64,000 nucleotides of DNA from Clostridiales bacterium (GTDB lineage: Bacteria; Bacillota; Clostridia; Christensenellales; Borkfalkiaceae). The number at the start of each line of letters is the position of its first letter. Position 1 is the stretch's first letter. The DNA lies in assembly GCA_015069615.1 (NCBI GenBank), contig SVIF01000007.1:1-64000 (forward strand). Reading direction: 5' to 3'. The notes under the pieces were generated by a model, which ran no database searches, was not told the DNA's origin, and worked only from the letters and a program-made list of their open reading frames with translations. Below are positions 29,905 to 57,583 of the stretch, piece after piece. The translations under genes and the position numbers were made by a program.

Positions 29905-32900
29905 ATGAAAAAAACACACACCTTACTTCTTTGGATTTTATCTTGTGCTTGTGCGCTTTGTTTGGCGGTTACCCCCTTTACCTTAACCCCAAAAGCAAAG
30001 GCAAGCACCACCCTTACGGGCGTTCCCTTTCAAGTGGAAAACGGCGCGTTAAATTCGATTGTAGGCGAAGGAATTATTTCCACCGCGCAAGCGTTTACGA
30101 ATACGGGCTTTACCCTAGAAACACGTTTAACCGTAACCACGGGCGCAACCGAATTGTATTTGGGGGAAAATCTGGAATACTATTTGCGCATATCCCCATT
30201 AGGCTCTAAATCGGGAATTTCTATCACGAAAGAGGATAAGCGCATAACCGTAAAATACAACACTTTTACGGGTTGTGATTTTGTGGAAGGAGAGAAAGTT
30301 GACGTTCGCTTAACCTACGACGATACGAATAAAAAACTTGCCTTCGCTATGAAAAAAAGCGCGGAAGCGGAATATACGCCCCTTTCCGCAAAGGTAAACT
30401 ATTTAAATACAAACGCAATTTCTAGCGGAACGCCCTACACAAACCCGAACGTTGCAGCCAATTATATTTTAGGCTACAAAACGATTACCGAATACGATGC
30501 GGATTTAAGCACCACGCGCATTGGCTTTGGCACACAGCCCGACTACGCGTTTACGGTTGAATCCCTTTCCTTAACGGGCAAAAACTTATCTTTTAACGAA
30601 GATTTTAACGAGTTGAACAGCGTTGTTTGGAGAGAGAATACTTCCCCTTCCATTACGCCTGCGGGGGAACTTTTACTGCCCCGCTCTTCCGAAGTTTGCC
30701 TTGTGGCAAAAAAAGATTTGGTAAGCAAAAACGTTGCCCTTTCCTTGCGTATGAAAGTGCTTACGGGCACGGTTGACGTTTGTGTTGGGGATAACGTAAT
30801 TACCATCAATCCCGCACTTAAAAAAATAGGTAATTATGATGCGGATATTTCCTACGGCGAATCTTTTATTCTTACCGCCTACTACCGTGGCAAAAACTTA
30901 GAAATAACTTTTAACGGCGAATTTTTAGGAATGCAAGAATTTATTGGTTCCAACCCTACGTTTGCCCTAAAATTAAACGGCGTGAATGCTTCTGCCGCTA
31001 TTGACGATTTCCGCGCAATCAACGCTTCATCTTTTAAAGGGCTGTTAATGGCGGATGATTTTTCGTACTTATGTACCGCCAACTGGCAGGGCGTGAAAAA
31101 AAGCGATTACGACTTATACGAATTGCTTACCCCCGTTTGGGAAGGAACCTATTCTTACGAAGAAGGCGTTTGGCCGGTTGGTAATGCGGACGGCACGAAA
31201 GCGCAAACCATTCCCCTACTGCACCCCATTTCGCAAATCATTGAAGTCCGCATGGCGGATAACAGCAAAGTGTTTGAAGAAGGCAAAGATTATTCCTTGC
31301 AAAACGGAAAACTTTATTTGCCAGAAACGACAAGTATTCCCGTAATGACACGCGCGGCATATGATGCCGGCATGTATATCAATAACGGCGTAGGTACGCA
31401 TTCGGATGCTCTTTTCCCCGTAAACCAAATTAAAGTTACCTATATGCACGGACAAAGCACCACCCTTGCCGTTCCCCAAAACAAGAGCAATCTACTTCCC
31501 CAAACCACCCAAAAATTAAACAACGGCGAACCGTTGAGAATCGTAACTCTTGGGGATAGCATTACCCAAGGAGCAAGTTCTTCGGGCAATAGCGACGTTG
31601 CCCCCTACCAAGACCGCTGGCCGTTTTTACTAACCGAAGGGCTTTCCGCAATGTATCCCAACAGCGATATTACTTTACAATCTTCGGGCTACGGCGGAAC
31701 GGGCGCTTGGGATGCGCTTGGCGGACACGGCGGATTTGAAAACGGAAATAATATTTCCTTGCTTCGCGACTTTGTAATCCCCTACCACCCCGATTTACTG
31801 ATTATCGCTTTCGGTATGAACGACCCCGGAACGGATGCGTTCTACTATAAAGCCGCATGCTGGGATCCTTTGGTTAACGGAATGAAACAACTGCTTCCCA
31901 ACACCGAAATTATTATCGTTTCCCCCATGATGAGCAACGTATATCAAGCGGGAATGGGATGCCTTGCTTCTATGTCGGACATTTACGCAACTTACGAAGA
32001 AAACGGCATTGCCTTTTGCGACGTTTCCGCCCTGCATCTTTCCATGATGGGTATGCAGCGAAACGCAGTAGAAGAAAAAGGCGGATACAACAGATATCTT
32101 CTTAGCCAAGACGAAAATAGAGAATATTTCAAAGATTATCGCGATACCACCGCAAACAATTTTAATCACCCCAACGACTACTTTTCCCGCGTGTACGCAC
32201 AAGCTTTATTAAACACAATCACTACCAAGCGCGTAGCTACGAGCGATGCAGTAAACACCGAAAACACGCAACTGTTTGCCTACTATAAAAACGCGCCTTC
32301 CATAGAACGCGGCAAAACCATTTCGCGTTCGGGATTTTCCCTTTTGCAAACGGATGAAAATTACCGTTTAATTGCCGGGGATACACTTTCCTCAATTTCC
32401 TACGACTGGAACAGTGCAGTGGGCAACACTTCCATTACGGTTACGATAACCGCTTTTAGCGGTTTAACAACCACCGTAGAAATCCCCATAACCGAACCTT
32501 CGGTAACACCCAGCACAACACCTACCCTAACCCCCAGCGTAGAACCCAGCGCCGCGCCTTCGGTTGTTCCCAGTACTGTACCTACGGTTGTACCTAGCGT
32601 GGCGCCCAGCGTTGCGCCTTCGGTTGTTCCCAGTATTGTACCTACGGTTGTACCTAGCGTGGCGCCCAGCGTTGTGCCTACGGTTGTACCTAGCGTGGCT
32701 CCCAGCGTTGCGCCTTCGGTTGTTCCCAGTGTTGTGCCTACGGTTGTACCTAGCGTGACGCCCAGCGTTATTCCTTCGGTTGTTCCCAGCGTTGTACCTA
32801 CGGTTGCACCTAGCGTGGCGCCCAGCGTTGCGCCTTCGGTTGTTCCCAGTATTATACCTACGGTTGTACCTAGCGTGGCGCCCAGCGTTGCGCCTTCGGT

Positions 32901-33135
32901 TGTACCTAGCGTAGCGCCCAGCACTATTCCTTCGGTTGTTCCCACTGCTACGCCTTCGGCTCAACCCAGCGCAGCACCCACGGTTGTCCCCACCCAAAAC
33001 CCCACCGTGCAACCTACCGTTGTGCCTACCACCGCAAAAAAGGGCGGATGTAGAAAGGCCACCGCACAAACCTTAGCTTTTCTTGCTTCGGTAATGGCTT
33101 TGGCTTCGGTAACGTTATTCGGCAAAAAACGTTAG
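29905..33135 (+). CDS. secreted SGNH/GDSL hydrolase with PSV-repeat stalk and GGC-type C-terminal anchor
   Basis: This large (1076 residue) surface protein has a signal peptide (MKKTHTLLLWILSCACALCL, likely cleaved after AKA). Two jelly-roll, concanavalin-like segments follow (about 35-215 and 215-370). A linker comes next, then an SGNH hydrolase domain (about 520-770) with block I VTLGDSITQGASS, block II GYGGTGAWD, block III AFGMNDPG and block V NHPNDYF. The usual Asp three residues before the His is Asn. A ~170-residue low-complexity stalk of Pro-Ser/Thr-Val units follows. The end is KKGGCRKATAQTLAFLASV-type: Gly-Gly-Cys, one hydrophobic helix and KKR. The domain suggests deacetylation or esterase action on glycans; the substrate is unknown. 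A paralogue follows directly. Confidence 0.85.
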   Translation: MKKTHTLLLWILSCACALCLAVTPFTLTPKAKASTTLTGVPFQVENGALNSIVGEGIISTAQAFTNTGFTLETRLTVTTGATELYLGENLEYYLRISPLGSKSGISITKEDKRITVKYNTFTGCDFVEGEKVDVRLTYDDTNKKLAFAMKKSAEAEYTPLSAKVNYLNTNAISSGTPYTNPNVAANYILGYKTITEYDADLSTTRIGFGTQPDYAFTVESLSLTGKNLSFNEDFNELNSVVWRENTSPSITPAGELLLPRSSEVCLVAKKDLVSKNVALSLRMKVLTGTVDVCVGDNVITINPALKKIGNYDADISYGESFILTAYYRGKNLEITFNGEFLGMQEFIGSNPTFALKLNGVNASAAIDDFRAINASSFKGLLMADDFSYLCTANWQGVKKSDYDLYELLTPVWEGTYSYEEGVWPVGNADGTKAQTIPLLHPISQIIEVRMADNSKVFEEGKDYSLQNGKLYLPETTSIPVMTRAAYDAGMYINNGVGTHSDALFPVNQIKVTYMHGQSTTLAVPQNKSNLLPQTTQKLNNGEPLRIVTLGDSITQGASSSGNSDVAPYQDRWPFLLTEGLSAMYPNSDITLQSSGYGGTGAWDALGGHGGFENGNNISLLRDFVIPYHPDLLIIAFGMNDPGTDAFYYKAACWDPLVNGMKQLLPNTEIIIVSPMMSNVYQAGMGCLASMSDIYATYEENGIAFCDVSALHLSMMGMQRNAVEEKGGYNRYLLSQDENREYFKDYRDTTANNFNHPNDYFSRVYAQALLNTITTKRVATSDAVNTENTQLFAYYKNAPSIERGKTISRSGFSLLQTDENYRLIAGDTLSSISYDWNSAVGNTSITVTITAFSGLTTTVEIPITEPSVTPSTTPTLTPSVEPSAAPSVVPSTVPTVVPSVAPSVAPSVVPSIVPTVVPSVAPSVVPTVVPSVAPSVAPSVVPSVVPTVVPSVTPSVIPSVVPSVVPTVAPSVAPSVAPSVVPSIIPTVVPSVAPSVAPSVVPSVAPSTIPSVVPTATPSAQPSAAPTVVPTQNPTVQPTVVPTTAKKGGCRKATAQTLAFLASVMALASVTLFGKKR
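32503..33020 (+). repeat. PS/PT-V tandem repeat tract in SGNH gene 1
   Basis: The DNA consists of degenerate 12-15 base units of the type CCTAGCGTGGCGCCCAGCGTT, encoding P-S/T-V-V/A-P modules. Longer blocks recur several times. The repeat is open in the antisense frames too, which creates the long minus-strand ORF in the track. Confidence 0.9.
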
Positions 33136-33318: not shown

Positions 33319-36300
33319 ATGACAAAACTCTCTTACCAACTCACCTTTTCCGTATTATCGGCGATACTTGCCATATGTGTTTTCCTTTGCTTACTGTTCA
33401 TTCCTAAGAATTCAGCAAAAGCAAGCACTACGGATTTAACCGGCGTTCCCTTTACCGTTTCGGACGGTTCTTTGACCACGACGGGCGGTGAAGGAATTAT
33501 TTCCACCGTTCAGGTCTTTTCCAACAACGGCTTCAATTTAACCGTTCGCCTTACGGTAACCGAAAGCGCTGCCGAACTGTATTTAGGGGAAAACCTAGAA
33601 TACTATTTGCGCGTTTCCCCCTTTGGTTCCGCCCCCGGCGTTTCCATTACGCAAAAGGATAAACGTTTGACCGCATATTACAACACCTTTACGGGTTGCA
33701 ATTACACACTAGGCGACGTAATTGATTTGAAAATAACTTACGCATCCAACAAGCTTTCTTTCGCAATGAAAAAAGCTTCGGATTCTTCCTTCGTTAACCT
33801 TTCCGCAAAGGTAAACGAAGAACAAAAGAACGTAATTTTCAGTAATAACGCACCCAACCAACATTCCATTTACACCTATCATGCGATTACCGATTGGGCG
33901 GCAAACCTTTCCACCACGCGTATCGGTATCGGTTGCGAAAAGGACCAAACGTTTAGCGTGCAATCCGTTTCCATGACGGGTACGGGCTTTACCGCGTTTA
34001 ACGAAGAATTTAACAGTTTAGACGCAAACATTTGGCGCAGCAACCAAAAGCCCTACACCACGAAAACGGGGGAATTCGTTATGCCCCGTTCTTCGGGCCT
34101 TGCGTTAACCACCAAAAAGGATGCCATTAAGAAAAATGCGGCGGTTTCCTTACGTATGAAAATTGATTCGGGCACGGCAACCCTTTCCTTTGGGGATAAC
34201 GCCTTTAAGATTGACCCCGCGCAAGGAAAATTCGGCGGATACAACGTTCCCATTTCTTACGGCGAATTCTTTACGGTTTTTGCGTATTACAGAAGCAACA
34301 ACTTGGAAATTTCGGTAAACAACGAATTCGTTGCTATGCCTGCTTTTAGCGGTACGAATTATCAGTTTACGGTGGCTTTAGACGACGTAAATTCTTCGGC
34401 CGCCATGGATTTCTTCCGCGCGTACGACAGTTCTACGGGCTCCGGCTTTGCCATTGCAGACGACTTCTCCTACTTCAACTACGAAAACTGGTCGGGTTAC
34501 GGAAAAGCGGATTACGACCTTGCAAAAATGTTGCAACCCGTTTGGGAAGGCAACACCGCTTACGAAGAAGGCGTTTGGCTTGTTGGTAATGCAAACGGCA
34601 CCAAAGCGCAAACGGTTGCCCTTCTTCACAAAATTTCCACCATTGTGGAAGTGAAAAAGGCAGACAACTCCGTAGTTTATACGGCCGGTAAGGATTATAG
34701 CATTTCCGCAGACGGCAAACTTGTAATTCCCGAAACCACCACCATGCCCGTTATGAACAAATCCGTTTACGATAACGGCGCGTTCGTATCTAATAACGTT
34801 GGTTATCACGCGGATAACGCTTGGGAAGTTAACCAAATTAAAGTTACTTACACCTTTACCCAAAAGACCGCTTTGAACGCTCCCCCGCTACAAACGGCAA
34901 ACCTACCCAAAACGACGAGCATTTTACAAAACGGTGGCGACTTAAAAATCGTAACCTTTGGGGATAGCATTACCGAAGGTTGCAGTGCTTCGGGGCACTT
35001 TGACGTTGCACCCTTTATGGATAGTTGGGCGTTTATGTTAAAAGACGCGCTTACCGCAATGTATCCTAACGTAAACGTTTCCTTACAAAACTCCGGCTTT
35101 GGCGGTACGGGCGCAGGATACGCGATCGGCGGACATGGCGGATTTGAAAACGTCGGCAATAACGCTTCTATGCGCGACTACGTTGTTCCCTACGATCCCG
35201 ATCTTATCATCCTTGCTTTTGGTATGAACGACTCCGGAACTTCCGCTTGGTATTATAAAGCAGCCTTCTACGATTACGTAATCAGCGGATTAAAATCTTT
35301 GGTTCCCAACGCGGAAATCCTTGTTCTTTCCCCCATGACCAGCAACGTATATCAATCTTCTATGGGTTGCTTAATCGGGATGTCCGACGTATTTGCTACG
35401 TATAAGGGAAACGGCGTTGCATTCTGTGATATTACCGCGTTGCATCTATCTATGATGGGTATGAACCGTGTTCCCGGGGCTTTGGAACAAAACTTCTACT
35501 CTTACACCTTAGAGCAAGATGCATCTAGAGAATATTACAAAGACTACCGTGATACTTCGGGCAACAACTACAACCACCCCAACGATTATTTCGCCCGCGT
35601 TTATGCGCAAGCAGTAATGCGTTGCCTTACGGATAAAACACTTGCCCTTTCTAACAACGTCAACAAAGCAAATCCCGTTGCGTATGCATACTATAAAAAC
35701 GGAACTTTCATTGAACGCGGCGCAACTTTAAGAAAATCCCACTTTACCATCGTGCAAATGGATAGCGTGGGCGCGTTAACCTCCATAGATTACGTAAATT
35801 CCGTATCCTACGATTGGGCTTCTGCGGAATACAGTGACGTGTTAGAAGTAACCGTTACCGCGCTTTCAGGAATGACGGACGTCGTTCGTATTCCCATCAA
35901 CAAACCCGAACCCGAACCTTCGGTAACCCCTTCTACAACTCCTTCGGTAGAACCTAGCGTTGTTCCTTCGGTTGTTCCTAGCGTAGCACCTAGCGTTGTA
36001 CCCTCGGTTGTTCCCAGCGTAGCACCTAGCGTTGTTCCCTCGGTTGTTCCCAGCGTAGCACCTAGCGTTGTTCCCTCGGTTGTTCCTAGCGTTGTACCTA
36101 GCGTTGTTCCCTCGGTTATTCCTAGCGTGGCACCTAGCGTTGTTCCCTCGGTTATTCCTAGCGTTGTACCTAGCGTTGTACCCTCGGTTGTTCCCAGCGT
36201 AGCACCTAGCGTTGTACCTTCGGTTGTACCTAGCGTTGTTCCTACGGTAGTGCCTACTGTAATTCCTAGTGTGGCACCTACCATTGTTCCCACGGTTGTT

Positions 36301-36879
36301 CCTAGCATTGTACCTTCGGTTGTACCTAGCGTTGCTCCTTCGGTTGTACCTAGCATTGTTCCTACGGTAGTGCCTACTGTAATTCCTAGTGTGGCACCTA
36401 CCATTGTACCCACGGTTGTACCTAGTGTGGCTCCTTCGGTTGCACCTAGCGTTGTACCTACGGTAGCTCCTAGTGTAACGCCTTCGGTAATTCCTAGTAT
36501 TGCACCTACGGTTGTGCCTAGTGTTGCACCTACGGTTGTTCCCAGTGTGGCTCCTTCGGTTGCACCCAGCGTTGTTCCCTCGGTTGTTCCCAGCGTGGTA
36601 CCCACCGTTGTTCCTACGGTAGCACCCAGTGTTGCTCCTACGCTTATTCCTAGCGTGGCACCCAGTGTAGCACCCACGGTTGTTCCCACTGCTACCCCTT
36701 CAACTCAACCCAGTTTGGCACCCACGGTTGTTCCCACCGAAAACCCCACAATTCAGCCCACCGTTTCTGCCACCCCTGCTAAATCGGGTGGTTGCAGAAA
36801 AGCAACCGCGCAAACCTTAGCATTCCTTGCTTCGGTTATGGCCCTTGCTTCGGTAATGCTGTTTGGCAAAAAACGCTAA
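33319..36879 (+). CDS. secreted SGNH/GDSL hydrolase paralogue with long PSV-repeat stalk and GGC-type C-terminal anchor
   Basis: The 1186-residue paralogue of the preceding gene shares its full layout: signal peptide (about 1-35), two jelly-roll-like segments opening with LTGVPFTVSDG and GEGIISTVQVF, an SGNH domain with VTFGDSITEGCSA, GFGGTGAGY, AFGMNDSGT and YNHPNDYF, then a stalk. The stalk is longer than in copy 1 (about 270 residues versus 170), and the C-terminus is almost identical (GGCRKATAQTLAFLASVMAL...GKKR). Again Asn stands where the catalytic Asp is expected. Tandem duplication followed by divergence of the enzyme domain and expansion of the stalk is the simplest explanation. Confidence 0.85.
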   Translation: MTKLSYQLTFSVLSAILAICVFLCLLFIPKNSAKASTTDLTGVPFTVSDGSLTTTGGEGIISTVQVFSNNGFNLTVRLTVTESAAELYLGENLEYYLRVSPFGSAPGVSITQKDKRLTAYYNTFTGCNYTLGDVIDLKITYASNKLSFAMKKASDSSFVNLSAKVNEEQKNVIFSNNAPNQHSIYTYHAITDWAANLSTTRIGIGCEKDQTFSVQSVSMTGTGFTAFNEEFNSLDANIWRSNQKPYTTKTGEFVMPRSSGLALTTKKDAIKKNAAVSLRMKIDSGTATLSFGDNAFKIDPAQGKFGGYNVPISYGEFFTVFAYYRSNNLEISVNNEFVAMPAFSGTNYQFTVALDDVNSSAAMDFFRAYDSSTGSGFAIADDFSYFNYENWSGYGKADYDLAKMLQPVWEGNTAYEEGVWLVGNANGTKAQTVALLHKISTIVEVKKADNSVVYTAGKDYSISADGKLVIPETTTMPVMNKSVYDNGAFVSNNVGYHADNAWEVNQIKVTYTFTQKTALNAPPLQTANLPKTTSILQNGGDLKIVTFGDSITEGCSASGHFDVAPFMDSWAFMLKDALTAMYPNVNVSLQNSGFGGTGAGYAIGGHGGFENVGNNASMRDYVVPYDPDLIILAFGMNDSGTSAWYYKAAFYDYVISGLKSLVPNAEILVLSPMTSNVYQSSMGCLIGMSDVFATYKGNGVAFCDITALHLSMMGMNRVPGALEQNFYSYTLEQDASREYYKDYRDTSGNNYNHPNDYFARVYAQAVMRCLTDKTLALSNNVNKANPVAYAYYKNGTFIERGATLRKSHFTIVQMDSVGALTSIDYVNSVSYDWASAEYSDVLEVTVTALSGMTDVVRIPINKPEPEPSVTPSTTPSVEPSVVPSVVPSVAPSVVPSVVPSVAPSVVPSVVPSVAPSVVPSVVPSVVPSVVPSVIPSVAPSVVPSVIPSVVPSVVPSVVPSVAPSVVPSVVPSVVPTVVPTVIPSVAPTIVPTVVPSIVPSVVPSVAPSVVPSIVPTVVPTVIPSVAPTIVPTVVPSVAPSVAPSVVPTVAPSVTPSVIPSIAPTVVPSVAPTVVPSVAPSVAPSVVPSVVPSVVPTVVPTVAPSVAPTLIPSVAPSVAPTVVPTATPSTQPSLAPTVVPTENPTIQPTVSATPAKSGGCRKATAQTLAFLASVMALASVMLFGKKR
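35921..36760 (+). repeat. PS/PT-V tandem repeat tract in SGNH gene 2
   Basis: About 840 bases of degenerate units such as CCTAGCGTTGTTCCCTCGGTT encode P-S-V-V-P and related modules. One longer block (GTAGTGCCTACTGTAATTCC and what follows) occurs twice about 120 bases apart, evidence of recent internal duplication. A minus-strand ORF of 293 codons overlaps it only because of the codon composition. Confidence 0.9.
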
Positions 36880-48281: not shown

Positions 48282-49703
48282 TTAGAAACAGTATTCTTTG
48301 ATAAATTTGATTACGCCGGCCGACCAGCCGTGGCATAAACTGTGGCGAAAGCCTTGGTAACAGAACGCGCCGTGATCCCCGTGGATATCCCGTTCCCCCG
48401 TTTTGGGTAGGCGGGTGATGGGGGCGGAGCCACTCAACCATTCCACGTTGAAATCTTCCCAAAAGGTAGTTGCGCCAAGGGATAGCATACCACCGTAATA
48501 CTCCTTCATAATTTGCGTTGCCGTTTGGGGGTTTTTGCTTGCAATCGCCTTCAAAATATAATACGCAGTAAAGGTAGATAGACCCTTTGCTCCCCCTTTA
48601 ATTAGCGTTTGATACTCCCCTTCGGTTAAGTTGCCCGTTGCCATATAGCGGATAGCGATGACTTGCTTTTTATCCGTGGGTTTTCGCACGTAGGCTTGCA
48701 AACGGCGCTTGATTTCGGTGGCACTTTGTGGGTTTTCATTTAATGCGGAAAGTAAATATTCCGCCTTTTGCATTGCCCATAGGGCAAGGGCCTGCACCCC
48801 TTCCTTGGCATCGGGCGTTCCGCACGTGGGCCAATCTAAGAAATAATCGGGAAAGGATAATTCCCCCGTTTGGCTGACGTGTTCCCCCAAGAAAGATACG
48901 AGAGCAAGTAAGTATTCTTTTTGCCCTTGCGCATAAGTTAGCGCTCCCGTTTCGCGAACGTAATCGGCCAAAACGATGATCCACCAAAGGGAATACGCGG
49001 GGTAGCCGTTCATCCAAGCGGGCAAGGGCGTTTGATTTTTGATATAGGTAAGCGAGCGTTCTATTTGGGGAATTTTACCGTATAGGGTGGTAAGCGCAAG
49101 CATTTCGGGGTGCAAATCCCCCACCCAAACTAGCCGGTCTCGCTTTACCCCATCCCACACGAAGGGGGTGGATGCGCATAAATCCACCGTGCGCTTTGCT
49201 GCGTTGAAAATTTGCGCAATTTCTTTATCCGTTCCTTGATAACGGTATTGCATTTTCCCCGCGAAAATTTGGTTTTCGCAGAAAACATTTTGCAAACAAC
49301 ATTCCCCACCCGATAAAAAGTCTATCTTAACGAAGCGGAAACCCGTTTGCCCGAAAGTCAAATCCGAAAAAGCGGAAAGTTCCACGGTGATATCCCGTGG
49401 GCTATGGTCGTTAGTGGCGTTTTTTTCGCCAAGTTCGGCATAGGTTTCCCCCACGCTTTCCCCAAAACGGATACGCGCCTTGGTGCCGTTTTTAGCCCGT
49501 GAAAGGAGCATACGAATACCGCCGTGCATTTCCTTACCGAAGTCCAAAAGAAGGGTTGCACCCACGTTTGCGCGGGCGATTTGGCTTTCCCACCCTTCAT
49601 CCCAACGAAGGACGGGGGTTAAGGGTTGTTTCTTATATAACGCGCGGACGTTTTCCACGCCGTTTGCGCTGACAATTTTTTTTGGTAACAGAAGTTGTTT
49701 CAT
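48282..49703 (-). CDS. intracellular alpha-L-rhamnosidase-like glycoside hydrolase (GH78-related)
   Basis: Residues about 150-473 read as a six-hairpin (alpha/alpha)6 catalytic domain of the bacterial alpha-L-rhamnosidase type. The signature VWDGVKRDRLVWVGDLHPE contains the conserved Asp residues, and FRHSLCHGWSAGVIKF matches the C-terminal HGWS motif. The N-terminal 150 residues form a beta-sandwich (LLLDFGKEMHGGIRMLL). At 473 residues it is much shorter than most GH78 enzymes and has no signal peptide, so it probably cleaves imported rhamnosides in the cytoplasm. The start after GGGAGGTAAT is firm. Its position next to a propanediol microcompartment suggests it supplies rhamnose. Confidence 0.78.
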   Translation of the reverse strand: MKQLLLPKKIVSANGVENVRALYKKQPLTPVLRWDEGWESQIARANVGATLLLDFGKEMHGGIRMLLSRAKNGTKARIRFGESVGETYAELGEKNATNDHSPRDITVELSAFSDLTFGQTGFRFVKIDFLSGGECCLQNVFCENQIFAGKMQYRYQGTDKEIAQIFNAAKRTVDLCASTPFVWDGVKRDRLVWVGDLHPEMLALTTLYGKIPQIERSLTYIKNQTPLPAWMNGYPAYSLWWIIVLADYVRETGALTYAQGQKEYLLALVSFLGEHVSQTGELSFPDYFLDWPTCGTPDAKEGVQALALWAMQKAEYLLSALNENPQSATEIKRRLQAYVRKPTDKKQVIAIRYMATGNLTEGEYQTLIKGGAKGLSTFTAYYILKAIASKNPQTATQIMKEYYGGMLSLGATTFWEDFNVEWLSGSAPITRLPKTGERDIHGDHGAFCYQGFRHSLCHGWSAGVIKFIKEYCF

Positions 49704-49736
49704 ATTACCTCCCTTCTTATAGCGTTTATCCTTTAC

Positions 49737-49765
49737 AGTATAACACACCCCTTGCAATTTTGCAA
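49737..49765 (-). promoter_or_regulatory. promoter of the rhamnosidase-like gene, inside an inverted repeat
   Basis: TTGCAA, 17 bases, TATACT on the minus strand. The -35 box lies in one arm of the palindrome at 49743-49774, so the same DNA holds the promoter and the upstream terminator or operator. Confidence 0.65.
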
Positions 49766-49774
49766 GGGGTGTGT
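49743..49774. terminator. 32-bp perfect inverted repeat after pduQ-type gene
   Basis: Arms ACACACCCCTTGCAA/TTGCAAGGGGTGTGT with a two-base centre. On the minus strand it ends in GTGTGTTATACT, a poor T-tract for termination. It may be an operator controlling the embedded promoter, a weak terminator, or both. Confidence 0.65.
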
Positions 49775-49798
49775 AAAGTTTTGATTTGCGTTATTCGC

Positions 49799-50944
49799 TT
49801 ACCACAAGTTGCGGTAGATTTTTTCAATTTGTTCTTGGGTAGGCTTACGGGGGGTGGTTTCCATACAAGCATCCTCCATCGCCTTTTTTGCCATAGAAGG
49901 AATTCTGCGTTCGTATTCTTCCTTGGTTATATCCAGCATTTCGCTAATGCGCAAGGGAATATTCATTTCCTTTAACATAAATTCCACCCAACCCACTAAG
50001 GAGTTAACGGTGTTTACTTCGTTAAAGGCTTGCACGCCAAGCGTTCTTGCCACCGTGCAATACTTTCTTACCGAGGGCAGGTATTCCGCCTTGCTTTTAC
50101 TGTAACGGTTGATATCCGCGTTAAAAGAAATGACGTGAGGAAGCAAAATTGCGTTTGCGCGCCCGTGGGCAATATGGAAATTTGCCCCTAATTGATGCGC
50201 CATTGCGTGGTTTAAGCCAAGATTTGCGGAGTTGAACGCAAGCCCCGCTAAGCAAGAAGCAACGTGCATTTTTCTTCTTGCGTGCGTATCGTTGTTATCG
50301 TGATACGAACGAAGAAGGAACATACCGATAATTTCAATCGCCTTTTCCGCAAACGCCGCCGAAAATTCGTTGTTATCCAAGCTTACGTACGATTCTAACG
50401 CGTGCGTAAATACGTCCATCCCCGTATCCGCGGTTACCGCAGGGGGTACGGATTTTACTAAAACTTCATCCAAAATGGCTTCTTCCGCCGCCAAATCAGG
50501 GGAAAGCAAGGGAATTTTCCGTTCGTTGGCCACGTCCGAAATTACTGAAAACATAGTAACTTCACTTCCCGTGCCGCTAGTAGTAGGAATTGCAATTAAG
50601 CGGGGATAATACCCTTCTTCCAACGTGCCCGCAAACGAACGAATTGCTTTTGCGCTATCAATCGCACTGCCGCCGCCCACCGCAACCAAGCAATCGGGGC
50701 GGGAATCAAGCACGCTTTTAACCCCTAATACCACTTTATCAACGGGAGGGTCGGGAACTACGTCCGCAAAAACGTTAAAGGGGATTTGCGCCTGCTTTAA
50801 TCTTGCGGTAATTAAATCAATCATACCGCTTTTTACGATAAAGGGGTCTGCAATTACCAAAACGTTTTTCGCTTCAATTTCGGTTAAGCGAGCAAGGGCA
50901 TCTTCCCCAAAATATACGGTTGTTTTAATGCCGAATTTTTTCAT
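49799..50944 (-). CDS. pduQ: iron-containing alcohol dehydrogenase, PduQ type
   Basis: This group III Fe-dependent alcohol dehydrogenase would reduce propionaldehyde to 1-propanol and recycle NAD+ in the microcompartment. Visible are the NAD-binding GGGSAIDSAKAI, the signature IPTTSGTGSEVTMFSVI and the metal-binding histidines in GLNHAMAHQLGANFHIAHGRANAI. The 381-residue length is typical. No clear encapsulation peptide is apparent; the N-terminus MKKFGIKTTVYFG starts directly with the fold. It is the last gene of the deoR-parA-parB-like-pduQ string. Confidence 0.9.
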   Translation of the reverse strand: MKKFGIKTTVYFGEDALARLTEIEAKNVLVIADPFIVKSGMIDLITARLKQAQIPFNVFADVVPDPPVDKVVLGVKSVLDSRPDCLVAVGGGSAIDSAKAIRSFAGTLEEGYYPRLIAIPTTSGTGSEVTMFSVISDVANERKIPLLSPDLAAEEAILDEVLVKSVPPAVTADTGMDVFTHALESYVSLDNNEFSAAFAEKAIEIIGMFLLRSYHDNNDTHARRKMHVASCLAGLAFNSANLGLNHAMAHQLGANFHIAHGRANAILLPHVISFNADINRYSKSKAEYLPSVRKYCTVARTLGVQAFNEVNTVNSLVGWVEFMLKEMNIPLRISEMLDITKEEYERRIPSMAKKAMEDACMETTPRKPTQEQIEKIYRNLW

Positions 50945-50992
50945 ATATACTCCGTCTCGTAAGAAAAGTTACAACAAATCAAGTGATTAGAA

Positions 50993-51427
50993 TTATAAAA
51001 GGTAATAAGGAAGGTCGGTTTTTACGGATTTTACCGCGCGGAATTTTTCTTCGTGAATAGAAGGCACGGGTGCCGCTTTTTCCGCTTTGGGAATTGCATT
51101 CATTTGTTTACAGAAAGCCTTGGCCGCCGTTTCATCCAGCGAAAGGATTACCGCGGGAACTTCGTTAATAGAAAGCGCTTTTGCCGCTTGTAAGGTGTTT
51201 GCGCCCCTTAAAAGAAACAATTCGCTACCCTTTGCCCAAGCAACTACGGGTTCGGTTACGCCGTACGCCTTTACTTGCGCTTCAGCGGATGCGCGGGTAT
51301 CCTTTTGAAAGCCCTTGGGCGTATCCAAAATTACGGAAACAGGGACTTTAATTACCGAAGTTTCGGGAAGTTTTACGGTTGCAGGGCCTTTGCCCGCACG
51401 TGCTAAACTGCTAATTCCTACTGACAT
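50993..51427 (-). CDS. small ParB/sulfiredoxin-fold protein in the microcompartment locus
   Basis: The 144-residue protein has a central ParB-N/Srx-like domain (about 25-100): KVPVSVILDTPKGFQKDTRASAEAQVKAYGVTEPVV, then LFLLRGANTLQAAKALSINEVPAVIL, which corresponds to the usual GxxRLxAAK...VP..V segment. It lacks the helix-turn-helix and dimerisation domains of chromosomal ParB. The last 40 residues are a Lys/Pro/Ala-rich linker and a conserved-looking end, KSVKTDLPYYLL. Its start overlaps parA by 10 bases, so the two are translationally coupled and probably interact. It may be the adaptor or cargo-side partner of the ParA ATPase. The function is inferred. Confidence 0.7.
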   Translation of the reverse strand: MSVGISSLARAGKGPATVKLPETSVIKVPVSVILDTPKGFQKDTRASAEAQVKAYGVTEPVVAWAKGSELFLLRGANTLQAAKALSINEVPAVILSLDETAAKAFCKQMNAIPKAEKAAPVPSIHEEKFRAVKSVKTDLPYYLL

Positions 51428-52203
51428 CTTTCCACAATCTCCTTAGTTAAGTTTCTATACTCCTCCGCACTGCGCGAAGTTTTCTTAAACGCGCCAACGG
51501 GTTTACAAGCATCTTCTGCCCATTCCACGTTTGCATCCAAGCGAATATACGTTTCAAACGCTTTGCAATCGGGCTGTTCTTTTAGCGCGGCAAGGGTTTG
51601 CTTGAAATAGTTTTTACGGGTATCCACTTTGGTTACCACCACCCCAAGAAGGTCGATATCGGGGGAAACGGTTTTTACTTGTTGAACGAAATCCAACATA
51701 TTAGCCAAACCGAATAGCCCCCAAGGGCTTGCTTCTACGGGAAGAACGAGCGCGTCCGCAGCGATTAAGATATTCATGGTCCAACCGCCAAGGGTGGGGG
51801 GCGCGTCTAAAATAATATAATCGTAAACCCCGCTTTCCACCGTTTTTTTCAATAAATTTCTAAGCACGAATTCGCGTTGCCATTTGGTAAACAGTTCAAA
51901 TTCAATGCCCGATAAAAGGGTGGAAGAAGGAACGAAATCAATATTTTCGTAAGGGGTTTTGCAAATGATTTCCGAAATATCTTTTCCGTTTTTTACGGCG
52001 GAGTACAAGTTTTCTTCGCCGCGCGCCATTTGGATTACTTCTTCTTCGGGAAAAAATGCAAGGGTTAAATTCAGCTGCATATCACAGTCAATCATCAGCA
52101 CCTTTTTTCCCATTTCCGCAAGCGAATATCCTACGTTTGCAGCGGTAGTGGATTTACCGCTACCCCCTTTGTTATTTGCAAATGCAATCAGTTTGGTTTG
52201 CAT
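51418..52203 (-). CDS. ParA/Soj-family ATPase in the microcompartment locus
   Basis: The 261-residue protein is a deviant-Walker ATPase: NNKGGSGKSTTAANVG with the signature lysine (residue 12), switch I region MIDCDMQLNLTLAFF, Walker B YDYIILDAPPTLGGWTM. ParA proteins form nucleotide-dependent dimers on the nucleoid and move plasmids, chromosomes or protein cargos; McdA does so for carboxysomes. It has no HTH, so it resembles McdA/Soj rather than plasmid type Ia ParA. It sits between deoR and a small ParB-fold gene in the operon for a glycyl-radical microcompartment, which suggests a role in distributing the compartments. The cargo assignment is inference from context. Confidence 0.85.
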   Translation of the reverse strand: MQTKLIAFANNKGGSGKSTTAANVGYSLAEMGKKVLMIDCDMQLNLTLAFFPEEEVIQMARGEENLYSAVKNGKDISEIICKTPYENIDFVPSSTLLSGIEFELFTKWQREFVLRNLLKKTVESGVYDYIILDAPPTLGGWTMNILIAADALVLPVEASPWGLFGLANMLDFVQQVKTVSPDIDLLGVVVTKVDTRKNYFKQTLAALKEQPDCKAFETYIRLDANVEWAEDACKPVGAFKKTSRSAEEYRNLTKEIVERCQ

Positions 52204-52206
52204 AAT

Positions 52207-52974
52207 TTACGCCTCCGGATACAAACAAGTTATGTGGTTTTGGGTAAAAAATTCCAACCAATCGCTTGAGGGCTTGGTTTCGCAAATTACCCCGTCCACC
52301 ATAGAAAAATCCGTAATTTTTGCAAAGTTGACTTTGCCGAATTTACTGGTATCTACCGAAAGATATACTTTTTTCGCCGATTGTGCTACCACGCGTTTTA
52401 CCGCAGAGTTTTCGTCGTCCGCATCCGTGATACCACCCTTTTGATCCACACCTTTTGCGGAAAAAAACATTTTATCCACCCTAAAATCCCTTGCGGTGGA
52501 TTCTGCCCTACCGCCAACGAGTGAAAACGAACCGCTTTTCATTGTTCCGCCCGTGGAAATTACCTTCCAGTCGGGGGCGTCTACAAGTTCTACAAGAACT
52601 TCTACCGAGTTGGTGATTACGGTTAAATTCTTTTTGCCTTTCAGTTTTTTCGCAATGAATAACGCGGTGGAACTACCGTCTAAAAACACCGAATCGTTAT
52701 CGTCAACAATCGTTGCGGCTTGTTCGGCAATCAGTTGCTTTGCAACTACGTTTTTCTTTTTACGGACGAAATAAGGAAGTTCTACGTTGCTTTCTTCTTT
52801 CAAAAAGGCGCCACCGTAGGTTTTTACCACGTAACCATCCTGTTCTAACTTATCTAAATCGCGACGAACGGTTTCTTCTGAAACCGAAAATTCTTGCGCC
52901 AAATCGGCAACCAAAACCCTACGGTTTTCTTGTAAATGATTTAGAATATGGTGTCTGCGTTCAATAGCAAGCAT
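52207..52974 (-). CDS. DeoR/GlpR-family transcriptional regulator
   Basis: The 255-residue regulator has an N-terminal DeoR HTH (MLAIERRHHILNHLQENRRVLVADLAQEFSVSEETVRRDLDKLEQDG) followed by the DeoRC sugar-phosphate sensor domain (VFLDGSSTALFIAKKL, GGRAESTARDFRVDKMFFSAKGVD). Such regulators respond to phosphorylated sugars. Fuculose-1-P, rhamnulose-1-P or dihydroxyacetone phosphate are plausible ligands because the operon encodes a class II aldolase. The ORF track start is seven codons early; ATG after AAAGGAG is used. A palindrome lies just upstream and may be its own operator. Confidence 0.9.
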   Translation of the reverse strand: MLAIERRHHILNHLQENRRVLVADLAQEFSVSEETVRRDLDKLEQDGYVVKTYGGAFLKEESNVELPYFVRKKKNVVAKQLIAEQAATIVDDNDSVFLDGSSTALFIAKKLKGKKNLTVITNSVEVLVELVDAPDWKVISTGGTMKSGSFSLVGGRAESTARDFRVDKMFFSAKGVDQKGGITDADDENSAVKRVVAQSAKKVYLSVDTSKFGKVNFAKITDFSMVDGVICETKPSSDWLEFFTQNHITCLYPEA

Positions 52975-52989
52975 TTCCTGCTCCTTTGG

Positions 52990-53005
52990 GCGCAATCGTT
53001 TGCGC
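52990..53005. repeat. 16-bp palindrome before deoR
   Basis: GCGCAA-TCGT-TTGCGC lies eight bases before the deoR ribosome site. It is a candidate operator for autoregulation, or an RNA hairpin in the leader. Confidence 0.6.
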
Positions 53006-53026
53006 GTATATATTTTCCTTTAATTG

Positions 53027-53054
53027 AAAAAGACCGCGCTTTGCTACGCGCGGT
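53027..53054 (-). terminator. terminator/attenuator between pduT and deoR
   Basis: ACCGCGC and GCGCGGT pair around an eight-base loop, followed by CTTTTTC on the minus strand. It separates the shell/enzyme genes from the deoR-parA module and would set a lower level for the latter. Confidence 0.8.
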
Positions 53055-53061
53055 GATTTCC

Positions 53062-53610
53062 TTACAGTAAGTGTTTAACGATGCGGGCATCCGGACGGGC
53101 AATTACGCTGCTATCCAAGAACATGCCGCGGGGGGCAACTGCATCCTTCGCGCGATCAATTGCCGCTTGTACCGCAGCAACTTCGCCCGTAAGCATAACG
53201 TAAGATTTACCGCACATACCGCGCGCCATACGAATTTCCAGCAAAGATACGTCCGCAGTTTTTGCCGCCGTATCTGCCGCAACGATAATCGCCGCCGCAT
53301 CGTACGTTTCCATAATGCCTAAGGAATTGATTTCCTTTACTTCGGTTGCGCCGTAAATTGCGGGGAAAATTGCATCGTCGGGGTTCCCTAAAACGAAGGT
53401 ATCAATGAGTTCTTCTTCGCGCGTGCGTTTTGCAGTTTCTACCGCTGCGGCAACCGCCGAAAGTTCACCCGTTACGATAACGATATATTTACCGGGGCAA
53501 ACGGTTTCCGCTTCAATAATATCAATATCCGCGGTTTTTACCATTGCATCCGCACCGAACACACCTGCCGATACGGTTTTATATTCTGCCATTCCGATTG
53601 CTTTTGCCAT
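53062..53610 (-). CDS. pduT: BMC-T shell protein, PduT-like, with pore cysteine
   Basis: The 182-residue protein consists of two fused BMC domains (about 1-90 and 95-182), forming a trimeric shell tile. Cys38 (ETVCPGKYIVIVTGE) falls exactly at the position of PduT Cys38, which in Salmonella and Citrobacter PduT ligates a [4Fe-4S] cluster in the trimer pore. The second domain carries RMARGMCGKSYVMLTGE. It lies two bases after the PduS-like gene, its known electron-transfer partner. It is the only double-domain shell protein seen here. Confidence 0.93.
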   Translation of the reverse strand: MAKAIGMAEYKTVSAGVFGADAMVKTADIDIIEAETVCPGKYIVIVTGELSAVAAAVETAKRTREEELIDTFVLGNPDDAIFPAIYGATEVKEINSLGIMETYDAAAIIVAADTAAKTADVSLLEIRMARGMCGKSYVMLTGEVAAVQAAIDRAKDAVAPRGMFLDSSVIARPDARIVKHLL

Positions 53611-53612
53611 AA

Positions 53613-54938
53613 TTAACCTCTCTTCACGGTAACGAATTTACCGTCTACCGCCGTTACGGTTCCCGAAAGGGACGTATGAATGTTTACGGATAAGCCGTTC
53701 CCTGCCTTGCCAATGATTTGACCACGCGTTACCGTATCCCCCACTTGTACGGTGGGAATTGCGGGCGCGCCAATGTGCATTTGCATAGGAATACGAACTT
53801 GCGTTACGTTAGCAATGTTCATATCCAAGGGGGCTTCTACGTTATATTTGGTTAAATTTAATCTTGCAAGTAAACGATCTACGGGCGCTTTTCTAAGTTC
53901 GCGTTTTTCGGGCGAGAAGGAAGCCGCTTGTACTTGCGGGGGCTTAACCCCTGCCGCGCGTAAACCTGCTTTGTATTGCGCCATTAAACTTCTGGGGCTT
54001 AGGCCTTGGAAACAAGAATACATTTCGCAAAGACCGCAAGAACTACAGAAGAAAGTGTTTAAGAAGATGTTGGGATCTTGTACGTCCTTACAAGTTGCTG
54101 CGCGCATAAATAAGTGGGGTTGAATAGGATGGCCAAGCGCATGGCGGGGACATAAATCCGTACACATACGGCACTGGCAACAGCTTGCTGCCGCGCGGCG
54201 TAAGGAAACTTTCGGATCTTCCTGGCGTTTTCTTACCACCAAGTGATCTTCGGGAAGAACGATAATTGCGTTCGTAGTTTTCGTGATTAAAGTGGTTTCG
54301 GAGCCAAGCGAACCCATCATAACGCCGCCCATAATGAAAGCGGGGTTTTTAACGGTTGCGCCGCCGGCAAGGGCGATTGCATCCTTTACCGTACTGCCGA
54401 TAGGAAGATACACGGTTGCGGGATTTTTCACTTCCCCCGTTACGGTTACCAGTTTATCCGTAACCGCTTCGCCGTGCATAGCGCGATATAAATTGTAGCA
54501 AGTTTCTACGTTGAACACGGCAACGCCTTGTTCAATGGGAAGTCCGCCCGGACGAACGACTTTACCCGTGGCTTCGTAAATTAAAACCACTTCATCCCCC
54601 GCGGGGTAAATTTTATCCAGAGTAGCAATACGCATACCGGGGAAAGCGGAAATATGTTCGTTTAACACGCGAATGGTGGAGGTATACGATTTTTTGATAC
54701 CGATTACCATTTCGGTAGAACCCGCGGCCTTGCCGATTTCATAAAAAGCGGAAAGAATTTCGTGCGGATATGCGGAAAGAAGCGAACGGTGCAATTTCAG
54801 CAGCGGTTCGCATTCCGCGCAATTCATAATGATGGTTTTCGCGCGTTCGTCAATCTTTGCGTGCGTGGGAAAACCGGCACCGCCGCAACCGACGATACCG
54901 TTCTCTTTTAATAGCGCAACGATTTCTGCCTTTTCCAT
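53613..54938 (-). CDS. pduS: PduS-like RnfC-family Fe-S flavoprotein
   Basis: The 441-residue protein has the RnfC/NuoF-like nucleotide and FMN region (VGCGGAGFPTHAKI, NCAECEPLLKLH, AGDEVVLIYEATG), a SLBB domain (VKNPATVYLPIGSTVKDAI), two ferredoxin-type clusters (CCQCRMCTDLCPRHALGH and CSSCGLCEMYSC) and a C-terminal biotinyl-like barrel. In the B12-dependent pdu pathway PduS reduces cobalamin. No B12 enzyme is present here, so it more likely moves electrons from NADH through the PduT cluster across the shell. Its gene is translationally close to pduT. Confidence 0.92.
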   Translation of the reverse strand: MEKAEIVALLKENGIVGCGGAGFPTHAKIDERAKTIIMNCAECEPLLKLHRSLLSAYPHEILSAFYEIGKAAGSTEMVIGIKKSYTSTIRVLNEHISAFPGMRIATLDKIYPAGDEVVLIYEATGKVVRPGGLPIEQGVAVFNVETCYNLYRAMHGEAVTDKLVTVTGEVKNPATVYLPIGSTVKDAIALAGGATVKNPAFIMGGVMMGSLGSETTLITKTTNAIIVLPEDHLVVRKRQEDPKVSLRRAAASCCQCRMCTDLCPRHALGHPIQPHLFMRAATCKDVQDPNIFLNTFFCSSCGLCEMYSCFQGLSPRSLMAQYKAGLRAAGVKPPQVQAASFSPEKRELRKAPVDRLLARLNLTKYNVEAPLDMNIANVTQVRIPMQMHIGAPAIPTVQVGDTVTRGQIIGKAGNGLSVNIHTSLSGTVTAVDGKFVTVKRG

Positions 54939-54986
54939 ACCTTCCTCCGTAAAAATATAGCCTTATGTACTAGGTGATGGGTGGGA

Positions 54987-55250
54987 TTATTCTAAATTAC
55001 TGCCGTCGTCAATAATACCAACGATTGCTGCGTCTACGGGAGCGCTAGGATCACCTACGCCATAACGCGCACTACTGCCTTGCACAACCAAAACGTATTC
55101 GCCAATCCCTGCCCCAATGTTATCAACCGCAACGATACGATTATCCACGCGAAGGCTGGGGATAGGTTCTACAATCATAAACTTGCTACCCACTAAATTC
55201 TCATTTTTGCGGGTGGAAACTACGCTTCCTACTACTTTGCCGATAATCAT
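54987..55250 (-). CDS. pduN: BMC-P vertex protein, EutN/CcmL/PduN family
   Basis: The 87-residue protein forms the pentamers that cap the vertices of the shell. It has the standard start MIIGKVVGSVVSTRKN, VEPIPSLRVDNRIVAVDNIGAGIGEYVLVVQGSSAR, and the C-terminal DAAIVGIIDD motif. It lies 30 bases downstream of pduL, with a small hairpin between. Confidence 0.95.
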   Translation of the reverse strand: MIIGKVVGSVVSTRKNENLVGSKFMIVEPIPSLRVDNRIVAVDNIGAGIGEYVLVVQGSSARYGVGDPSAPVDAAIVGIIDDGSNLE

Positions 55251-55262
55251 GGCTCTCTCCTA

Positions 55263-55278
55263 CCGTAAAATTTTACGG
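55263..55278 (-). repeat. hairpin between pduL and pduN
   Basis: CCGTAAAATTTTACGG is a perfect 16-bp palindrome two bases after the pduL stop codon. It is likely an RNA stem-loop in the polycistronic message. Confidence 0.65.
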
Positions 55279-55280
55279 AA

Positions 55281-55919
55281 TTAAACAATGTAAGCGGACG
55301 TTCCCGTTGCAATTTTTGCAGCGTTCGCTTCGTCCGTATCAATGTGCATTTCTAAGGTGAAGGTGGGATCTACGCGAACAACTACGTTGTTGAACGTAGT
55401 ACCGCGTTCGTTATCCACGCGCACCGAAACGACTTGTTTATCCTTCACCCCAGCGTCAAGCGCATCCTTGGGGCTCATGTGGATGTGGCGCATAGCCACA
55501 ATACAGCCGTTTTGTAAATAAACGCAACCTTTGGGCCCAACTAGGGCAATAGGTGCGGAATTTGCTAAATCACCGGACAGTCTTACGGGTGCTTTTACCC
55601 CAAGTTTTACTGCGTCCGTTGCAGATACTTCTACCTGCGATTGCGAACGAACGGGCCCTAATACGCGCACGTTTTCAATAGCGCGAAGTTTTAAGCCAAC
55701 GATGGTAACCTGTTCGTTACATGCATACTGGCCGCCCATAAGTTCCTTCTTTTTCGTCAGTTGATAGCCTTTACCAAACAACGTTTCCACGTCTGCTTGC
55801 GTAAGGTGTACGTGGCGTGCGGAAACCCCGATAGGTACTGCGTAACCACCGCTGCTAGATTGTTTTTCCAAAACTTCTAAAACGAGTTTTGTGATTTTTT
55901 CAATACTTGCTTCTTGCAT
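55281..55919 (-). CDS. pduL: phosphate propanoyltransferase PduL
   Basis: PduL converts propionyl-CoA and phosphate to propionyl-phosphate, recycling CoA inside the compartment. The 212-residue protein has the zinc-binding motifs SARHVHLTQADVE, RHIHMSPKDAL and EMHIDTDEANA. The N-terminal amphipathic helix QEASIEKITKLVLEVLEK followed by a Ser/Gly linker is a typical encapsulation peptide. It follows four BMC-H genes after a 209-base gap carrying three hairpins. Confidence 0.95.
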   Translation of the reverse strand: MQEASIEKITKLVLEVLEKQSSSGGYAVPIGVSARHVHLTQADVETLFGKGYQLTKKKELMGGQYACNEQVTIVGLKLRAIENVRVLGPVRSQSQVEVSATDAVKLGVKAPVRLSGDLANSAPIALVGPKGCVYLQNGCIVAMRHIHMSPKDALDAGVKDKQVVSVRVDNERGTTFNNVVVRVDPTFTLEMHIDTDEANAAKIATGTSAYIV

Positions 55920-55989
55920 AAGCGTTCTCCGAAAAAAAGTAATACGATATTGTAGGCTTTTATTAGCCCTTAGTGAAAAATGTTTTTAG

Positions 55990-56119
55990 GGCGGAAAACC
56001 CGCCTTTTTTACCGTTTTTTAGCCATACTTCGCCAAGGGGGCGGATTTTGCGCCCCCATTTAGCGTTCGTATGTTATGTTTGATCGGTGAAAAGAACTTG
56101 TTGCGCGGAAATTCCGCGC
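55990..56119 (-). repeat. three stem-loops between BMC-H gene and pduL
   Basis: Three GC-rich hairpins lie in the 209-base gap 55920-56128: 55990-56004 (GGCGG/CCGCC), 56037-56057 (GGGGGCG/CGCCCCC) and 56103-56119 (8-bp stem, GCGCGGAA arm). The T-tracts after the first and third lie on the plus strand, so they would not stop the minus-strand operon. They could stabilise the 3' end of the shell mRNA or block antisense transcription. Confidence 0.7.
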
Positions 56120-56128
56120 GTTTTTACC

Positions 56129-56407
56129 TTACTTTAAAGCGGGTAAAATCTTTTCAACGTCGGTATGAGGTCTGGGAATTACGTGCGTAGCAACGAGTTC
56201 GCCAAGTTTTGCTGCGTTAGCAGAACCTGCTTCTACTGCTGCTTTAACTGCGCCTACGTCCCCACGAACCATAACGCTTACCAAGCCGCTACCAATTTTT
56301 TCGGTACCAACTAAAACAACGTTAGCTGCTTTTAACATGCTATCTGCTGCTTCAATTGCTGCTACCAAACCTCTGGTTTCTACCATACCCAATGCTTCTT
56401 GTGCCAT
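56129..56407 (-). CDS. BMC-H shell protein, PduA/PduJ-like (copy 2)
   Basis: The 92-residue single BMC domain forms hexagonal tiles. The sequence [56 protein letters not shown] and [14 protein letters not shown] is canonical for the main structural BMC-H. It is about 85% identical by eye to the paralogue at 56898-57176, indicating a recent duplication. A GGAGGAGT ribosome site supports high expression. Confidence 0.95.
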
Positions 56408-56445
56408 TTTTGAACTCCTCCAAATTTAATACAATTTTATTATGT

Positions 56446-56499
56446 TTCGGGCATTGCACCCGAATAGTTTTTCGTAAGTTGTGTTTCCTTTATGGAAAC
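56446..56499 (-). repeat. two stem-loops between BMC-H genes
   Basis: TTCGGG/CCCGAA (56446-56464) and GTTTCC/GGAAAC (56483-56499) lie in the 102-base gap. They have no T-tract and are probably mRNA processing or stability elements. Confidence 0.55.
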
Positions 56500-56509
56500 G
56501 GTTGCGTTA

Positions 56510-56842
56510 CTATGCTTGCGCTTTGGGCGCAGCCTTCGCACGCGGTTTTTGTTGGGCGTTTTTCTTTTCCATTCTTGCCGCGCTGATTTTCGCGATTTTC
56601 ACAATTTCCGGGTGAGGATTTGCGATAACCGCCTTCGCCACCGGCTTTTTAATGCAATTGTTCGCCGCCGTTTCTACCGATTGCGCAACTGCGGAAACTT
56701 CCCCTTCAATTACGAGCGTAACCAATCTGCCACCCATTTTACGTTCCCACGTAACTAGATGCACGTTAGAGGTTTTGCACATAATATCCAGCGCGTCTAC
56801 CGCGGCGCAAACGCCCGAAACTTCAATAAAGCCGTACGCCAT
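56510..56842 (-). CDS. BMC-H-type shell protein with basic Ala/Lys tail
   Basis: The first ~85 residues form a divergent BMC domain (MAYGFIEVSGVCAAVDALDIMCKTSNVHLVTWERKMGGRLVTLVIEG). The end is a 25-residue basic extension (ARMEKKNAQQKPRAKAAPKAQA). Such tails occur in PduK/EutK-like shell proteins and may bind nucleic acid, cargo or a partner. The pore loop differs from the canonical KIGSG, and there are two extra cysteines in the N-terminal helix. Its position between two canonical BMC-H genes suggests a minor shell component. Confidence 0.85.
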   Translation of the reverse strand: MAYGFIEVSGVCAAVDALDIMCKTSNVHLVTWERKMGGRLVTLVIEGEVSAVAQSVETAANNCIKKPVAKAVIANPHPEIVKIAKISAARMEKKNAQQKPRAKAAPKAQA

Positions 56843-56897
56843 GTTTTTTTCCTTCCTTCTGCTTACGCGTTGTTACGCGCAAATTTTTACGGTTCCC

Positions 56898-57176
56898 TTA
56901 CGCAAGCGTGGGGAGAATTTTTTCAACGTCGTTATGGGGTCTGGGAATTACGTGAACAGCTACCAGTTCGCCAAGTTTTGCTGCAGCGCCAGCGCCAACT
57001 TCGGTTGCAGACTTAACTGCACCTACGTCCCCACGAATCATAACGCTTACCAAACCGCTACCGATCTTTTCGGTACCGATTAACGTTACTTGTGCTGCTT
57101 TTACCATTGCGTCTGCTGCTTCAATCGCTGCTACTAAACCTCTGGTTTCTACCATACCCAATGCTTCTTGTGCCAT
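56898..57176 (-). CDS. BMC-H shell protein, PduA/PduJ-like (copy 1)
   Basis: This 92-residue BMC-H differs from the copy at 56129 mainly at the C-terminus (KILPTLA) and a few surface positions ([28 protein letters not shown]). The pore loop KIGSG is shared. The ORF track adds 22 upstream codons, but GGAGG nine bases before the ATG of [13 protein letters not shown] fixes the start. A perfect stem-loop precedes it. Confidence 0.95.
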
Positions 57177-57230
57177 AATTCTATTCCTCCGATTTTCTTT
57201 TAATTCTTTTGGCTTTGCAACGGTTTTCCG

Positions 57231-57572: not shown

Positions 57573-57583
57573 ACGCGGTACCC

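Follow-up and report, generated by a model that had tools for sequence, protein, structure and literature searches.

Among described C-terminal sorting signals, the MYXO-CTERM tail of Myxococcota is processed by a CPBP protease, the myxosortase MrtX (PMC11980579). GlyGly-CTERM is a tripartite tail found on secreted enzymes and is the target of intramembrane-protease cleavage by rhombosortase (PMC3237569, PMC6219818). The sortase signals LPXTG and NPXTG join a short motif to a helix and a basic end, behind a Pro/Thr-rich or collagen-like stalk. Other Cys-containing tails (Synerg-CTERM with MrtS, JDVT-CTERM with MrtJ and CGP-CTERM with MrtA) were reportedly paired with CPBP proteases by Haft in 2024 on the basis of co-occurrence (J Bacteriol 206:e00173-23, as cited in PMC11980579). 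None of the literature searched describes a tail of this kind from Clostridia. Here we report an undescribed class of Cys-containing C-terminal sorting tails in sortase-less Clostridia, together with a candidate protease identified by co-occurrence.

The tail encoded in the window (the whole 64,000-nucleotide stretch analyzed) shares with MYXO-CTERM an invariant Cys, often within GC or GCGC, a single helix, a basic end and a signal peptide on the same protein. In both systems the passengers are surface hydrolases, many per genome, and a CPBP partner is indicated by co-occurrence. The present tail differs in its Lys-rich rather than Arg-rich end, in the lack of any NCBIfam match above cut-off and in its candidate partner, a CPBP clade termed here type B, which is not MrtX, scores below the Mrt_core cut-off and does not satisfy the MrtX, MrtC or MrtP models. 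As the host belongs to the Clostridia, no type II secretion step is expected, unlike in MYXO-CTERM. Synerg-, JDVT- and CGP-CTERM are likewise Cys-containing, tripartite and accompanied by a CPBP, but they come from other lineages and have other motifs, the one seen here being C-x-[SGA] or C-x-K; for Synerg-CTERM, moreover, neither TIGR04564 nor MrtS was matched above cut-off. GlyGly-CTERM has in common with our tail the tripartite form and the secreted enzymes, but it has no conserved Cys and its enzyme is a serine rhomboid, which was not found in the genome assembly containing the window (G000). LPXTG and NPXTG signals are alike in motif, helix, basic end and stalk, whereas the present tail is devoid of a Thr-Gly motif and the family is devoid of sortase. 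What characterizes Cys-CTERM/CPBP systems in general, a lineage-restricted tail and one co-occurring CPBP clade, was found here too, but the dedicated type B protease was not found in G000 itself.

Both tails in the window terminate SGNH/GDSL hydrolases, proteins A and B (Table 1). Each is built, from the N-terminus, of a signal peptide, a beta-rich region, the hydrolase domain, a long Pro-Ser-Val/Thr linker (PT repeat) and the Cys tail. Protein B is 55% identical to A across the pre-linker part, both signal peptides end in AKAS, and the GDSIT, GGTGA, GMND and NHPND blocks are invariant across A, B and an orthologue (L041). Sequence searches of the PDB with the SGNH domain returned no credible relative, and a hydrolase structure predicted with three input sequences had a mean pLDDT of 46 and was set aside. 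The original prediction described a Gly-Gly-Cys/helix/KKR ending on both hydrolases and no LPXTG; the endings agree exactly, and inspection of A and B found no LPXTG in either. Elsewhere in the window, on the minus strand (48282-64000), lies a fucose/rhamnose-type bacterial microcompartment locus as judged by gene content, encoding a glycyl-radical enzyme and its activase, a class II aldolase, a CoA-acylating aldehyde dehydrogenase, a PduL-like phosphotransacylase, a shell protein, a PduS-like protein, alcohol dehydrogenases and a DeoR regulator.

Table 1. Coordinates of the two hydrolases and their parts within the window.
Feature	Position	Strand	Basis and remarks
Protein A, 1076 aa	29905..33135	+	ORF; Pfam Lipase_GDSL_2 1.2e-11; PT repeat
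Signal peptide of A, MKKTHTLLLWILSCACALCLAVTPFTLTPKAKAS	29905..30006	+	Sequence; simple-rule scoring
SGNH/GDSL hydrolase domain of A	31549..32178	+	Pfam; GDSIT, GGTGA, GMND, NHPND blocks
Tail of A, KKGGCRKATAQTLAFLASVMALASVTLFGKKR	33037-33132	+	Sequence
Signature motif GGCRK of A	33043..33057	+	Sequence; Cys codon 33049-33051
Hydrophobic helix of A, ATAQTLAFLASVMALASVTLF	33058..33120	+	Sequence; constraint (dN/dS)
Gly and basic cluster GKKR of A	33121..33132	+	Sequence
Protein B, 1186 aa, a paralogue built like A	33319..36879	+	ORF; Pfam
SGNH/GDSL hydrolase domain of B	34957..35433	+	Pfam 1.4e-11
Tail of B, KSGGCRKATAQTLAFLASVMALASVMLFGKKR	36781-36876	+	Sequence
Signature motif GGCRK of B	36787..36801	+	Sequence; Cys codon 36793-36795
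Hydrophobic helix of B, ATAQTLAFLASVMALASVMLF	36802..36864	+	Sequence
GKKR of B	36865..36876	+	Sequence

The tail is modular. A search of the window's own assembly (1.43 Mb in 41 contigs, 86% complete) with a 32-aa query located it on five proteins: A, B and three more (E 4.6e-10, 1.0e-9 and 7.7e-9), a sixth match being the same gene as another tail protein split by a contig end. The original prediction was to fall if no other protein in the genome carried the tail, and in this respect it stood; beyond the two hydrolases, other proteins of G000 and other species have the tail. The five proteins fall into three domain architectures, and their linkers are of two types. Two are encoded side by side on contig C33, combine laminin-G-like domains with a calcineurin-like phosphoesterase region (a Pfam match in one of the two) and a collagen-like linker, and end GSCKKNATKTLA[LF]LASVMALASVMLFGKKR. 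Directly upstream of this pair are three tandem paralogues of about 565 aa that look heparinase II/III-like by eye (L007, 1201-6412). The fifth gene is split over two contigs (C3, at its end, and C36, at its start); its product carries carbohydrate-binding, Ig-like and Listeria-Bacteroides repeat domains, a metallophosphoesterase-like region recognized by eye and a PSVVPSV linker, and ends GGCKSCRKASAQSLAFLASVMALTSVMLFGKKR. The start of C36 (L008) and the end of C3 (L009) overlap inside this gene, as expected of a repeat-rich linker.

Run against 100 genomes of the family, a narrow profile built from the window's species (A1) returned no strong match, and the tail seemed species-specific, an impression discarded once broader profiles (A2, A3 and A4) revealed a class. 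Two weak A1 matches, KGGCGSVITATSAVLASVLLAGAVVVLKKKH and KDGCGSVVSGATLSAITLATACVALFGKKR, were the extreme C-termini of large secreted proteins. With the broader profiles we obtained 19 matches in G014 (1.2 Mb) and 15 in G031 (1.1 Mb), and as many as 19 tail matches per genome in other families of the order. By these profile searches, the tail is a member of a wider class present in many genomes of the order, with the layout signal peptide – enzyme – linker – [GS]-Cys-x-[S/G/K] – hydrophobic helix – KK. The C-termini of about 120 distinct tails were inspected. Cys is the sole invariant column in an alignment of 58 diverse tails, is encoded by both TGC (n = 76) and TGT (n = 43) and is kept in every verified tail from four or more families. 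A Cys-blind screen of regions read from four genomes yielded 47 picks with a single C-terminal helix and a basic end, of which five were evidently false (UMP kinase twice, a helicase, an ABC permease and an antisense frame); Cys was present in 42/42 of the remainder, a count that is strong and not fully unbiased, since the regions had been chosen for holding tails. By a simple rule, signal peptides were recognized in 39/45 Cys-bearing picks (some of the misses being plainly false picks or proteins whose start is truncated or misannotated) vs 33/174 other proteins. An orthologue of the hydrolase locus, with neighboring genes retained, was found in the metagenome-assembled genome RGIG467 ('Clostridia bacterium', dairy cattle colon); both this orthologue and a protein of the congener G018 have Cys tails, reading SCGT with a longer spacer. 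A phylum-wide search with A3 produced one other borderline match, which was without Cys and false, and weak matches within the order in G112, G138 and G302 were dismissed once their C-termini were inspected. Some tails contain two Cys residues (GCGCGG, GCKGCKS, GCSGCGS and GGCKSCRK; loci L302, L306, L307 and L310-L312 in family f32, L284, L294 and L299 in family f18, and L008 in G000) and resemble the GCGC form of MYXO-CTERM.

We then turned to the CPBP proteases, which are present in 100/101 genomes of the family, and listed and treed those of 16 tail-bearing and 14 tail-free genomes. The near-universal type A, encoded beside rlmH, was rejected as a partner: it occurs in 204/248 genomes of the order, mostly tail-free, and its distribution is therefore uninformative. 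Type B, which is Rce1-like, formed a supported clade (99/98, 17 rows). When its profile (A6) was run against the 248-genome sample of the order, 19 genomes scored at least 180 bits, the next match reaching 88 bits. Verified tails were found in 18/19 genomes with type B vs 9/229 without it (Fisher p 8e-20 for counts of 18/1/9/220). The association held inside single families (p 0.0025 for f1; p 0.0014 for f32, based on its 16 listed genomes), after removal of the 24 genomes in which the clade had been discovered (11/0/5/208, p 3e-15), when collapsed to genera (p 2e-10) and when every weak match was counted as a tail (p 5e-12). Among the listed genomes of family f19, only G145 carries type B, and it is also the only one with a verified tail. 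In G325, type B is the sole CPBP and accompanies 13 tails; in G189, about 1 kb separates a tail gene from a type B gene of the same orientation, the only such adjacency seen. This is the kind of pattern that led to myxosortase. One genome, G006 (L121), has type B and no tail by any profile, pointing to a diverged tail or another substrate.

Type B proteins match PF02517 above the Pfam cut-off, with the EExxxR motif and later conserved His residues; E120, E121, R125, H158 and H202 are invariant in A6. Two further residues are invariant in the same alignment, an Asn (N85) and a Cys that precedes the catalytic Glu pair by seven residues (C113 of L226); both could be marks of substrate or lipid handling. 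A PDB sequence search with type B returned no credible relative. Weak likeness to MrtJ (12/14 members), Mrt_core (8/14) and MrtS (4/14) remained below the curated cut-offs, and all CPBPs scanned fell below every Mrt cut-off (best MrtS score 45 bits vs a cut-off of 130). In the type A protein of G094 (L118, 2339-3244), Glu-Asp (EDFFFRG) replaces the Glu-Glu pair.

The nine tail-bearing genomes without type B are that of the window, six of family f18, G109 and G297. Type B was not found in G000 (86% complete) despite its five tails; the CPBPs detected there are type A, on contig C34, and a 381-aa protein on C10. The likeness to Cys-CTERM domains that had been proposed from the two hydrolases is upheld as far as sorting-domain behavior goes (unrelated domains, an invariant Cys, constraint, no sortase and a co-occurring CPBP) and lapses as to membership in MYXO- or Synerg-CTERM, and the co-occurring processing protease suggested along with it was located in relatives and not in the window's genome. 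The tails themselves differ with the protease. At the second position after the Cys (Cys+2), genomes with type B have Ser, Gly or Ala in 77/77 tails, and genomes without it, the window's included, have Lys in 9/27 (p 1.7e-6, or 2.6e-5 without the window's genome, values that overstate independence because tails within one genome are related); the detection pattern permitted S, G, K, A, N, Q or R at this position in both groups. The direction of this difference is consistent with recognition that depends on the enzyme present.

The diverged motifs in the window's species (GGCRK, GSCKK) suggest another CPBP or a changed route. As a special case of the sorting-signal reading set out below, it is possible, if rather doubtful, that type A or the 381-aa protein reads the signal there, type B having been lost or never present and the motif having shifted from GCGS to GGCRK. 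In favor of such a replacement, the window's genome and its congener G018 (79% complete, with a Cys tail and type A as its sole CPBP) both lack type B and have only type A in common, Lys at Cys+2 occurs only where type B is absent, and NCBIfam models put type A close to MrtS, the protease of Synerg-CTERM, albeit below cut-off. Against it stand the mostly tail-free distribution of type A and the tree, in which no CPBP clade is common to all tail genomes without type B.

A simpler account is a plain membrane anchor, in which the helix and KKR hold the enzyme uncut in the cytoplasmic membrane and the Cys is incidental or structural. A signal peptide and a C-terminal helix with positive charges inside suffice for anchoring, and where type B is missing, as in the window's genome, the tail may have been retained simply as an anchor. 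A bare anchor would tolerate exchanges among I, L, V and A, but LASVMAL and SV-LFGKKR are common to all five G000 tails despite numerous synonymous substitutions. In the A/B pair, the tail codons contain 14 synonymous differences and a single amino-acid difference; over the last 29 codons dN is 0.031 and dS 1.42, compared to 0.32 and 2.05 in the SGNH core. Synonymous sites have turned over, so recent DNA copying or gene conversion is not the cause of the tail identity, and a tail dN far below that of the core at similarly high dS means that the tail sequence matters. These substitution rates indicate that the tail residues are under selection in the window's species, and a merely hydrophobic helix would not be expected to be conserved so tightly. 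Nor is the Cys missing from any verified tail across four or more families, and a bare anchor leaves the association with type B and the dependence of Cys+2 on it unexplained. We therefore consider it unlikely.

Still less probable is a chemical use of the Cys without cleavage, as a disulfide or a covalent link to an envelope component at the membrane face. The second Cys of some tails (GCGCGG and GCKGCKS, and GGCKSCRK in G000) could pair with the first, but most tails have a single one, and the protease association would be left unexplained. Gut Clostridia are anaerobic, as this lineage presumably is, which also argues against the idea.

Sortase was found in 0/101 genomes of the window's family, with positive controls working; rhomboids were found in 11/101, and not in the tail-bearing G000, G014 and G031. 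The tail falls outside every NCBIfam and Pfam model. Below cut-off, Rumino_NPXTG weakly matched the helix and basic end of 14/28 tails (best 1e-4), models of MYXO-anchored proteins matched with E 0.012 at best, and TIGR04564 (Synerg-CTERM) matched 1/28 tails with E 0.5. Despite the Rumino_NPXTG matches, a degenerate LPXTG/NPXTG or rhombosortase signal is highly improbable, there being no LPXTG-type motif, and is refuted for the family by the absence of the enzymes.

Taken together, the tail is probably a Cys-containing CTERM sorting signal whose helix is cut by a CPBP protease, leaving the enzyme tethered by its C-terminus. The precursor would be exported via its signal peptide until the C-terminal helix halts in the membrane, leaving KKR on the inside and placing the Cys at the outer membrane face; a stalk of the PT or collagen-like type would project the enzyme outwards. 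A glutamic, Rce1-like CPBP membrane protease, most likely type B in most tail-bearing lineages of the order, would then remove the helix next to the Cys. On the model of myxosortase, cleavage would take place beside the Cys, most likely after its lipidation, and the enzyme would stay tethered through its C-terminus. For relatives of the window's species, a Cys-CTERM with a CPBP sorter is, as a class, well supported by the sequence comparisons. In the window's species itself, either type B lies in the missing part of the assembly, or the shifted motif is recognized by another CPBP, or the tail now serves as an uncut anchor. We tentatively propose a putative sortase-independent anchoring system in this order of gut Clostridia, in which type B may read C-x-[S/G/A] and cut dozens of enzymes per genome, which would become lipid-anchored; in the window's genus, the enzyme may have been lost or replaced and the motif changed to C-x-K.

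Sortase-less gut Clostridia must retain their surface enzymes by some as yet undescribed means, and the Cys tail with its CPBP is a concrete candidate, which would place Cys-CTERM signals in Clostridia beside Myxococcota, Proteobacteria, Synergistota and archaea. The tail would let surface proteins of many uncultured gut species be recognized from sequence. Tail and protease form a testable pair, in which the motif appears to change where the protease is absent, and the tail bears on the question of what lipidates such cysteines.
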